A stretch of 64,000 nucleotides of DNA, taken from Aquirufa lenticrescens (GTDB lineage: Bacteria > Bacteroidota > Bacteroidia > Cytophagales > Spirosomataceae). The stretch covers positions 2,370,501 through 2,434,500 of the forward strand of contig NZ_CP049834.1 of NCBI RefSeq assembly GCF_019916085.1. Direction: 5' to 3'. The notes under the pieces are model-generated. The model made no database searches, was not told where the DNA came from, and saw nothing but the letters and a program-made list of their open reading frames with translations. This document shows, in pieces, positions 1 to 49,531 of this stretch (positions are counted from its first letter, which is position 1; the number at the start of each line of letters is the position of its first letter). The position numbers and the translations under genes were made by a program.

Positions 1-271
1 TCTCCTTAATGTATAAATCCTCTAAGTAGAAGCGTCTCCCCTTCCAAGTAGAGAAACGGTAATACCACAAAGAAAATCCACCTAATTCTCCATTTAGATA
101 AATGAGATTAGCGGAAAATAAAGGATTATCTGAAAAACCTTCACCCACATAATCATCTATGGTGGAACTAACTTCTTCTGGAGCCTTTTCAAAGATGGCT
201 AACTCCATCACTAAATCTCGGACTAAGCCGATATCTTCTTTTGTGGCTCTGCGAATTTCTATCTTATCCAT
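1..271 (-). CDS. GNAT family N-acetyltransferase, 3' end beyond the window
   Basis: The reverse strand reads from an ATG at 271 and begins MDKIEIRRATKEDIGLV. It stays open to the window edge, so about 90 residues are visible and the C-terminus is missing. The opening (RRATKEDI), the FSANLIYLNGELGGFSLWYY segment and the RFYLEDLYIKE strand resemble GNAT acetyltransferases of the diamine/spermidine type, in which the LEDLYV-like strand precedes the acetyl-CoA loop. That loop itself is not in view. Its start overlaps the rluD stop by 8 nt (ATGGATAA), so the two are probably translationally coupled. The family call is reasonable; the substrate cannot be told from this fragment. Confidence 0.75.
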   Translation of the reverse strand, partial: MDKIEIRRATKEDIGLVRDLVMELAIFEKAPEEVSSTIDDYVGEGFSDNPLFSANLIYLNGELGGFSLWYYRFSTWKGRRFYLEDLYIKE

Positions 272-1295
272 TGATGGCTCTAAGTTTAGTTAAAAGGCTT
301 AAAAAATCTTCGGGAAATTCCTGTTCAAATTGCATAATTTCATTAGTTGTAGGATGAATAAATCCTAATGAATAGGCATGTAGGGCTTGTCTTGGACATA
401 TTTTAAATGCATTGTCAATAAAGGCTTTATATCCAGCCATCGATGACATATAGCGTATTTTGTCTCCTCCATAAGTCGAATCTGAAAACAAAGGATGGCC
501 AATCGATTGAAAATGCGCTCTGATTTGATGGGTTCTTCCCGTTTCTAGTTTAAACTTCACAAAAGAGGCAAAACCAAAAGTTTCCATCACCTCATAGTGA
601 GTAATCGCAATTCTGCCATACTCAGAATCCTCTGGAAAAATGGCTTGAATCTTACGGTCCTTTGGACTTCTACCTATCTTACTGCGTATGGTTCCTTTTA
701 ATTCCTTAGGAACGCCCCAGCAAATCGCATAATAGGTTCTTTCGATACTATGTTCGAAGAACTGTTGGCCTAGAAAATTAAGGGCAAATTCCGTTTTTCC
801 AATAACCAAAATACCTGATGTATCCTTATCGATTCGGTGTACTAAGCCGGGACGTATGTCTTTTTGTCCGGGGAGATTTTGGCAATGAAATAATAAACCA
901 TTCACCAATGTACCGGACCAATTACCTTGTGCAGGATGCACCACCATTCCTGGAGACTTATTGACCAAAATCAATTGTTCGTCTTCGTAAATAATATCGA
1001 TAGGGATATCTTCTGGATATACTTCTTTATCACGTGGAGGAGTTGCAAATGATACTGAAATCGTATCTAAGGGCTTAACGCGGTAATTCGACTTGATTAA
1101 TCCTCCATTGACTTTTACTGAACCAGCATCGATACCTACTTGGATCTTATTGCGACTAGTTCCCGCAATTTTAATCATCAAATATTTGTCGATTCTGAGT
1201 AATTGCTGACCTTTGTCAACGGTGAAATTAAAATGCTCAAATAAATCATCTTCCTCTTCAGAGTCAGGAGCATTCATTTCTGGATCGATGGACAT
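264..1295 (-). CDS. rluD: RluD-type 23S rRNA pseudouridine synthase
   Basis: This enzyme of the RluA/RluD family converts uridines of large-subunit rRNA to pseudouridine. Residues 34-64 form an S4-like RNA-binding domain (RIDKYL...GSVKVNG). The catalytic motif HRIDKDTSG lies at about 153-161, with the nucleophilic Asp near 156, and RTHQIRAHF is the conserved C-terminal segment. The length of 343 aa is normal for a Bacteroidota RluD. A second Met (residue 7, at 1277) could be the real start. The upstream ATG at 1295 overlaps the divergently oriented start of the next gene, leaving no intergenic room. The RluD rather than RluC/RluA assignment rests on overall architecture and is likely but not certain. 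Confidence 0.9.
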   Translation of the reverse strand: MSIDPEMNAPDSEEEDDLFEHFNFTVDKGQQLLRIDKYLMIKIAGTSRNKIQVGIDAGSVKVNGGLIKSNYRVKPLDTISVSFATPPRDKEVYPEDIPIDIIYEDEQLILVNKSPGMVVHPAQGNWSGTLVNGLLFHCQNLPGQKDIRPGLVHRIDKDTSGILVIGKTEFALNFLGQQFFEHSIERTYYAICWGVPKELKGTIRSKIGRSPKDRKIQAIFPEDSEYGRIAITHYEVMETFGFASFVKFKLETGRTHQIRAHFQSIGHPLFSDSTYGGDKIRYMSSMAGYKAFIDNAFKICPRQALHAYSLGFIHPTTNEIMQFEQEFPEDFLSLLTKLRAING

Positions 1296-4186: not shown

Positions 4187-4220
4187 TTTTTGAAAAATTA
4201 AAAATCTCCTTCTATATTTG
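4187..4220 (+). promoter_or_regulatory. Bacteroidota-type promoter of the long tRNA
   Basis: TTTTTG at 4187-4192 and TATATTTG at 4213-4220 are separated by 20 nt. This matches the Bacteroidota sigma-A consensus (TTTG, 19-21 nt, TAnnTTTG). It lies about 35 nt before the tRNA, so transcription should begin close to 4227. Confidence 0.75.
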
Positions 4221-4254: not shown

Positions 4255-4397
4255 TGTAGGGTGATGAAATTGGCAGACGTGCCCTCCTGTCTCGGGGGTG
4301 GTGAGTTCAGGATAAACACGGCATAATGGGTTGACCACTAAATCAGTTCTGTGTCGAGGCTAACTGCACCTTGGAGGTTCGAATCCTTCTCCTACAG
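4255..4397 (+). tRNA. Atypical tRNA, anticodon GUC, with a 74-nt variable region
   Basis: A complete tRNA core is visible. The acceptor stem is 4255-4261 with 4390-4396 (7 bp, one G-U). U8 is present, and the D-arm is 4264-4280 with a 3-bp stem and the class-II loop AAATTGGCAGA. The anticodon stem CCCTC/GGGGG encloses the loop CTGTCTC at 4287-4293, giving anticodon GUC (4289-4291). The T-arm is 4373-4389 with loop TTCGAAT. G73 is at 4397 and CCA is not encoded. The tertiary pairs A15-U48, U8-A14, G18-U55 and G19-C56 are all possible. The variable region, 4299-4372, is about five times the normal class-II size and folds into an 8-bp stem (4300-4307 with 4362-4370, one bulge) plus an inner 6-bp stem. 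U37 is unusual. The D-arm resembles tRNA-Leu, whereas the anticodon, C38, G2-C71 and G73 fit tRNA-Asp. Confidence 0.8.
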
Positions 4398-4443
4398 CAT
4401 TTTAATTAATTTGGTTTTTAGTTTGTTGATGAAGTGTAATGTT

Positions 4444-4476
4444 AAAAGCAATCTTATTTTAGGATTGCTTTTTTTA
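4444..4476 (+). terminator. Rho-independent terminator after the long tRNA
   Basis: AAAGCAATC, an 8-10 nt loop and GATTGCTTT form a 9-bp stem followed by a run of T. It closes a stand-alone tRNA transcription unit of roughly 250 nt starting near 4227. Confidence 0.85.
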
Positions 4477-49164: not shown

Positions 49165-49174
49165 CAAAGAAATA

Positions 49175-49531
49175 GAGAAAATAAACCGATAAGCCGAATT
49201 CTGTCAATGGTTACCCACCGTCCTATCATTTATCTTCGATAAACATCACTGTTTACCTGTAGCAATCTACCCACTAGCATCGGACGAGCCACCCTTTTGC
49301 CTTGCGACAGCTAGCCTATTTGATCTTGCAACGCGTGAGGTTTACCTAAGCCTGTTTTGTCACCAAACCAGCGGTGGGCTCTTACCCCACCTTTTCACCC
49401 TTACCCGAAGGCGGTAATTTTCTGTGGCACTTGCTGTTGAATCCGAAGATTCCCCTTCCAGTTAGGAAGCACGCCGCTCTATGTTGTTCGGACTTTCCTC
49501 TTTAAAAAGCGATAGGATAGTCTATTTTCTC
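49175..49531 (-). ncRNA. rnpB: RNase P RNA (class A)
   Basis: On the minus strand the universally conserved AGAGGAAAGTCCGAAC lies near 49502-49487 and the closing ACAGAATTCGGCTTATCGG near 49206-49186. The middle contains the conserved AAGGGTGAAAAGGTGGGG-like stretch, the ACAGAAAATTACC and the TGGTTTGGTGAC segments. GAGAAAATAGA at the 5' end pairs with the TTTATTTTCTC 3' end as P1, fixing the ends near 49531 and 49175 (about 357 nt). It is the catalytic RNA that removes tRNA 5' leaders. A TTGG-N21-TACCTTTG promoter precedes it. Confidence 0.95.

Follow-up and report, generated by a model that had tools for sequence, protein, structure and literature searches.

We describe a family of tRNA-derived RNAs that is spread across Bacteroidota and their phages and was found neither in Rfam nor in the papers searched. 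One member lies at positions 4255–4397 (+ strand) of the 64,000-nt stretch of the Aquirufa lenticrescens genome analyzed here (the window), where it was recognized by direct reading, comparison with relatives and a covariance model. ARAGORN called only a tRNA-Ala in the window and missed this position, Rfam 15 gave no match there at the gathering score and no convincing one at E ≤ 10, and no description of the RNA family was found in the titles and abstract beginnings of open-licence PubMed Central papers. A tRNA-like gene carried by most genomes of the bacterial family, much of the order and many phage contigs has escaped both Rfam and ARAGORN. There is good support for regarding the RNA as something other than an ordinary decoding tRNA. 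Judged from sequence, it looks built for aspartate loading and conversion to asparagine and poorly suited to codon reading, so that amino-acid chemistry, and not protein synthesis, may be what this tRNA is retained for.

Architecture and covariation

The window copy reads directly as a complete cloverleaf, as the first-pass annotation had claimed in proposing an intact tRNA core. A 7-bp acceptor stem (UGUAGGG/UCCUACA; the 5' strand with U1 and G2 at 4255–4261 pairs with 4390–4396) is followed by U8 and G9, a 3-bp D-stem and the D-loop AAAUUGGCAGA; this leucine-type D-arm bears out the class II, leucine-like body described at that stage. The anticodon arm (4282–4298; stem CCCUC/GGGGG) presents the loop CUGUCUC (4287–4293) with GUC at 4289–4291, retains U33 and continues with U37 and C38, and position 10 is A. 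The variable region covers about 74 nt (~4299–4372), within which the extended variable arm (4300–4370) comprises an outer stem (GGUG, 4300–4303, with CACC, 4367–4370), an internal loop (AUAAA near 4312–4316 opposite CUAAC, 4360–4364), an inner stem and GGGUUGACCAC at 4328–4338. The T-arm (GGAGG UUCGAAU CCUUC, 4373–4389) precedes the 3' acceptor strand and G73 at 4397, and the next nucleotide is C, with no CCA encoded. All parts lie on the + strand.

The gene had also been credited with a consensus promoter and a terminator. The terminator stands, as an intrinsic-terminator-like hairpin at 4444–4472 (+ strand; 1 found, 0.2 expected), whereas the promoter-like region at 4190–4220 (+ strand; TTGAAA-17-TATATT) is weak, with 3 such sites found and 2.1 expected by chance. 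Within it, TATATTTG at 4213–4220 also matches the Bacteroidota -7 box, TAnnTTTG. Between the RNA and the hairpin lies a conserved, C-free tail element of 24 nt (TTTAGTTTGTTGATGAAGTGTAAT, 4417–4440, + strand), unique in the source genome at up to 3 mismatches. It is found near the RNA in 50 of 51 genus and family loci, the exception (L008) ending 11 nt past the RNA, and elsewhere in 1 of 60 other-family loci, 34 of 119 genome_contigs loci and none of 70 viral loci. Since it sits more than 100 nt downstream of the RNA in some relatives, it may be a separate small RNA. At two f9 loci (L144, L156), a different C-free string takes its place. Further along the window, an RNase P RNA (class A) at 49174–49528 on the minus strand is an ordinary match.

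The fold of the single sequence is no more stable than that of its shuffles (z = −0.11; 89 of 200 shuffles as good), so stability lends no support and the structural support is comparative. The curated structure has 40 pairs over 26 sequences, with 96.7% of cells paired and 18 of the 40 pairs changed on both sides. Its covariation score of 0.257, obtained on the same alignment on which the structure was curated, which favours the structure, compares with a shuffled mean of 0.130 (0 of 500 shuffles reach the score) and with 0.044–0.110 for slid controls. Pairs changed on both sides lie in the acceptor, D, anticodon and T helices, in both helices (outer and inner) of the variable arm, and in a hairpin that only the 18 long forms have; the small helix 109–111/121–123 is invariant and so has no covariation support. 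Pairing is complete (100% of cells) in the 7-bp acceptor and the 5-bp T-stem and lowest (85.9%) in the inner variable-arm helix. The shortest members have a variable arm made of the outer stem, the internal loop (AUAAA opposite CUAA) and a small hairpin. A bulged nucleotide interrupts the T-stem in 15 of the 26 members of alignment A2, and L162 and several of the viral copies show one as well. Covarying changes back both the cloverleaf and the stems of the variable arm: the long variable region earlier read as structured does contain covarying helices, and the relatives with the same insertion whose compensatory changes were to be looked for do exist. An intron or group I insert is unlikely, the insert being short and forming covarying stems, and splicing-out is improbable because the variable arm has its own covarying helices. 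Two further candidates were set aside, namely an anti-Shine-Dalgarno role of CCCUCCU in the anticodon stem, where other members differ, and a tmRNA fragment, a separate tmRNA being present in the source genome.

Distribution in cells and phages

A DNA search detected the RNA in 31 of 38 genomes of the genus, with 16/16 where completeness reaches 90%, and, at E ≤ 0.1, in 206 of 222 genomes of the bacterial family, comprising 174 of 181 good genomes and 30 of 36 genera. The covariance model was built from 26 sequences, all with CUGUCUC loops, and is biased towards that loop. Its cellular matches (at least 62 bits and 105 nt) are separated by a clear gap from a class II tRNA background (at most 58 bits, 80–91 nt), which we took for tRNA-Leu. 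With this model (E below 1e-13, hand counts), about 287 of 390 genomes in the order sample and 68 of 395 in the class sample carry the RNA; a program tally of the phylum sample gave 40 of 395, three of these from one family outside the class. Hosts named among the matches listed include Dyadobacter, Spirosoma, Chitinophaga, Cyclobacterium, Algoriphagus, Emticicia, Flammeovirga and Saprospiraceae. These named-host loci and the viral contigs were picked by patterns that fix the loop and are therefore uninformative on loop variation.

The source genome, a single 2.5-Mb contig, holds one copy. It also contains the normal tRNA-Asp(GUC) that the first-pass annotation had suggested looking for, tRNA-Leu and tRNA-Ser genes, and a tmRNA. 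In another Aquirufa record (L298), the RNA is 92% identical to the window copy and its flanks 69–79%. Tandem arrays reach six copies in genome G253 and five in G342, and G380 has seven model matches, one of them across a run of N. The G380 array (L161:468–1498) shows loops CUUUCUC or CUCUCUC, with the Glu-type anticodons UUC or CUC replacing GUC, possibly a change of charging identity. A separate observation concerns L166 (positions 1–400, minus strand), in which a ~318-nt repeat contains the variable-arm portion of the RNA in two incomplete copies, broken up by other DNA, together with copies of the RNA's terminator; it looks like a duplication or insertion at the RNA gene. Recurring neighbours at 139 loci are lineage-specific only (for example lepA and ahpC, names read from sequence). 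The largest neighbour cluster (99 loci) was disregarded; it looks like a reading frame that runs antisense across the RNA gene.

Copies also occur in phages. An uncultured 636-kb phage has one that is 73% identical, near nine genes called by ARAGORN. Among viral contigs, 69 stretches were picked out by a pattern scan, and all 69 contain the RNA according to the covariance model. ARAGORN covered 36 of these loci and called one or more additional tRNA genes in 27, with three or more in 14. Contig L224 encodes 19 tRNAs including tRNA-Asp(GUC), a tmRNA and the tRNA-like RNA, and L218 likewise has a normal tRNA-Asp(GUC) alongside it. L224, L237 and L238 combine a tmRNA and many tRNAs with the RNA, an almost full set of translation RNAs. 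U1-A72 and G2-C71 are found in 46 of 47 distinct viral sequences and G73 in 47 of 47. Six viral contigs carry a 90-nt form with a variable arm of ordinary length and without the extra domain; it retains U1-A72, G2-C71, G73 and the loop (the last fixed by the search pattern), and ARAGORN called it tRNA-Asp in both of the contigs scanned. The RNA is identical in a 288-kb viral contig (L248:826–968) and in the 636-kb phage record (L031:5001–5143), which are probably the same or very close phages. Some contigs in the viral scan may be prophage or host DNA.

Identity positions, decoding positions and proposed function

Nucleotide conservation was counted over 115 distinct model matches, one of them a phage copy, with the three lowest-scoring ones, L372, L373 and L390 (aberrant loops), and L374, L375, L379 and L380 (aberrant D-loops) kept. 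Anticodon loops were counted over the 113 of seven nucleotides, leaving out L372 and the L161 copy across a run of N. U1-A72 and G2-C71 are present in 115/115 matches and G73 in 114/115, the single A73 being the only instance of the tRNA-Leu discriminator; in the loops, U35 is found in 113/113, C36 in 112/113, C38 in 110/113 and G34 in 103/113. Bacterial Asp identity comprises G73, G34, U35, C36 and C38, and G1-C72 and G2-C71 are strictly conserved in bacterial tRNA-Asp (PMC9976931, in part). The RNA family has these five determinants, as the Asp-type identity nucleotides noted earlier for the single copy had suggested, and it has U1-A72 throughout in place of G1-C72; G10, a further bacterial Asp determinant, appears in only 15/115. 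The positions that serve decoding behave differently. U33 is present in 90/113 loops (missing in 23) and a purine at 37 in 5/113 (absent from 108), compared with 31/32 each in the ordinary tRNAs of the source genome, where the one miss is a misplaced Lys anticodon. The family does not follow the elongator combination of U33 and purine 37, and the window copy, whose U37 had seemed so unusual, is like the 108 of 113 loops without a purine there. Departures at 33, 34 and 37 were seen despite the bias of the model towards CUGUCUC; C34 or U34 occurs in L153, L161, L162 and two of the doubtful, lowest-scoring matches. From the counts at 73, 34–36 and 38 against those at 33 and 37, positions read by the synthetase are kept while decoding positions drift or are lost. 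The same losses disfavour the frame-shifting or suppressor role that had been considered.

The first-pass annotation had not raised U1-A72 for G1-C72, the phage copies, the tandem arrays or the conserved tail element. Amidation of Asp-tRNA needs U1-A72, and G1-C72 together with U20a prevents it in tRNA-Asp (PMC9976931, in part); U1-A72 is read by GatCAB (PMC4206432, in part). The putative position 20a is A in 111/115 matches and U in none, the other four having aberrant D-loops, so that the family shows the GatCAB substrate feature of U1-A72 without U20a (20a as read here). As the RNA unites the AspRS set with the GatCAB set, the simplest reading is that it is loaded with aspartate, amidated and put to no ribosomal use. 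We therefore favour a non-decoding tRNA acting as carrier for tRNA-dependent asparagine formation via AspRS and GatCAB, with a probability of roughly 45%, and infer its biochemical steps and the fate of its product as follows. The RNA would be matured by tRNA processing and CCA addition, and ordinary AspRS, reading G34-U35-C36, C38 and G73, would load it with Asp. GatCAB, barred from tRNA-Asp by G1-C72 and U20a, would accept it because of U1-A72 and the lack of U20a, converting Asp to Asn. Use by the ribosome would be barred by pyrimidine 37, by the absence of U33 from many members, by the size of the variable arm and, where present, by the bulge in the T-stem; kept off the ribosome, the asparagine would be released or passed on and not misread at Asp codons. 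A partner probably binds the conserved internal loop of the variable arm. A fuller version, which we advance only tentatively, is that of a dedicated biosynthetic tRNA holding Asp while GatCAB makes Asn: a strictly discriminating AspRS would thereby feed Asn synthesis, lineages with a GatB-AspRS fusion would have dispensed with the RNA, and phages would carry copies to keep the route running during infection.

Gene content bears on this reading from both sides. GatB (PF02934) is encoded in 362 of 390 order genomes, including the source genome, which has GatB, AspRS and GlnRS; in the 66% of the source genome that was read, AspRS, LysRS and GlnRS were found and AsnRS and an asparagine-synthetase motif were not. 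According to PMC4206432, 18 of 547 surveyed genera, some Bacteroidetes among them, combine AsnRS, GlnRS and GatCAB with no asparagine synthetase. GatB frame lengths were compared in 28 genomes, 25 with a match, leaving out the family genomes G123 and G124 (no blastn match to the RNA). All five genomes examined from the family genera g3, g20 and g34 (G046, G129, G130, G131, G217) have GatB in frames of 1105–1126 aa, and all lack the RNA (G129 and G131 by blastn only, the others also by the covariance model). All five frames align end to end to GatB plus a full AspRS, a GatB-AspRS fusion whose two halves NCBIfam names in both frames tested; the genes are at L417:1717–5031, L418:2754–6059 and in L419–L421, with gatA preceding in the two loci read (L417, L418). 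All seven RNA-bearing family genomes examined have an ordinary GatB of 484–510 aa. In the source genome AspRS stands alone as a protein of 587 aa that shares 40% identity with the fused AspRS and has RDKG where all five fused forms have RDHG; histidine in AspRS is a mark of the non-discriminating type, which also accepts tRNA-Asn. Such a pattern would be expected if a fused transamidosome had taken the place of the RNA. The fusion may nevertheless go back to a single event, inherited or transferred, or to an operon acquired by transfer, and G307, of another family, has at a contig end a GatB 77% identical to the fused type.

Across the order, GatB is not upheld as a strict partner of the RNA. 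By hand comparison, the RNA is present in 5 of 28 genomes without a GatB match (G311, G350, G367, G378, G385) and absent from 80 of 362 with one; the three sampled genomes of genus g88 all lack GatB, and two of them (G378, G385) carry the RNA. One reduced-genome family contributes 15 of the 28 GatB-less genomes, so the association mostly reflects phylogeny. GatB-less genomes with the RNA, GatB-bearing genomes without it, the family genome G208 (ordinary GatB, no RNA), the scarcity of G10 and the members with C34 or U34 all count against the carrier, and the large variable arm may hinder AspRS, which would do so too. Glutamylation of tRNA-Glu by bacterial AspRS has been shown (PMC6523644, in part) and may soften the objection from the C34/U34 members.

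Among the alternatives, a regulatory or decoy tRNA mimic would not itself work as an acceptor; it would bind AspRS, an enzyme of tRNA modification or an anticodon nuclease of the host, and phages would use it to tune the host or to resist tRNA-cutting defence. We consider this rather unlikely, although the RNA lies beside normal tRNA-Asp in phage tRNA arrays (L218, L224), tandem copies in several cells suggest a need for abundance, the internal loop of the variable arm is conserved and an uncharged tRNA-like RNA is reported to stabilize GlnRS (PMC9976931, in part): a decoy leaves unexplained both the invariant U1-A72, the GatCAB mark, in place of G1-C72 and the GatB-AspRS fusion in RNA-less genomes. 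The fit of GUC, G73, C38 and G2-C71 to AspRS, the location in phage tRNA arrays and the ordinary proportions of the 90-nt viral form could also point to a decoding tRNA-Asp isoacceptor with an extra domain, serving Asp codons under special conditions or in phages. It is unlikely, given the losses of U33 (23/113) and purine 37 (108/113), the T-stem bulged in 15/26 members of alignment A2, the A72 in place of C72 that would turn the charged RNA into a GatCAB substrate, and the normal tRNA-Asp(GUC) already available to cells and some phages. Non-decoding tRNAs also serve non-ribosomal reactions, as staphylococcal cell-wall tRNA-Gly does, and a tRNA that donates Asp or Asn in the modification of peptides, lipids or the cell envelope would have the same conservation pattern as the carrier; with no partner gene recurring beside the RNA across lineages at the loci at hand, and phage carriage hard to account for, we regard a donor role as quite improbable. 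Least probable is a chimera of class II type with SerRS or LeuRS as its synthetase, for which the Leu-like body and the combination of G73 with a large variable region (among the bacterial Ser determinants) speak, because G73 is a LeuRS antideterminant, the Ser identity set lists C72 where all 115 matches have A72, and Ser identity is independent of the anticodon and E. coli Leu identity lies outside it (PMC9976931, in part), which leaves the conserved Asp-type loop unexplained.

If the carrier mechanism is true, there are tRNAs whose only task is amino-acid synthesis, and the GatCAB of GlnRS-encoding Bacteroidota, whose role was questioned (PMC4206432, in part), has one more substrate. Even if the mechanism is wrong, the job of a non-decoding tRNA in cells and phage tRNA arrays becomes directly testable.

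Comparison with known RNAs

The RNA shares features with several known tRNAs and matches none of them throughout. With bacterial tRNA-Asp(GUC) it has in common G73, G2-C71, G34 U35 C36 and C38, its loop reading CUGUCUC against CUGUCAC in the tRNA-Asp of the source genome; it departs in U1-A72, the class II body, U37, the large variable arm and, mostly, the lack of G10. The tRNA-Asn of the indirect route (ND-AspRS plus GatCAB) likewise has U1-A72 and G73, and the Asp-to-Asn conversion of that route is proposed to take place on the RNA, which differs in carrying GUC for GUU, decoding-averse features and the extra domain. Bacteroidota tRNA-Leu shares the 3-bp D-stem, the D-loop type and the class II architecture, whereas the RNA has G73 and not A73, U1-A72, an Asp-type loop and a variable arm several-fold longer. 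Allo-tRNAs and tRNA-Sec are also unusual bacterial tRNAs with long variable arms, but their acceptor branch has 12 or 13 bp (8/4, 9/3 or 8/5; partly after PMC7609411, in part), where the RNA is 7/5 with GUC. Finally, tmRNA is tRNA-like too and occurs on some of the same phage contigs; unlike it, the RNA has a full anticodon arm and no recognized tag frame.
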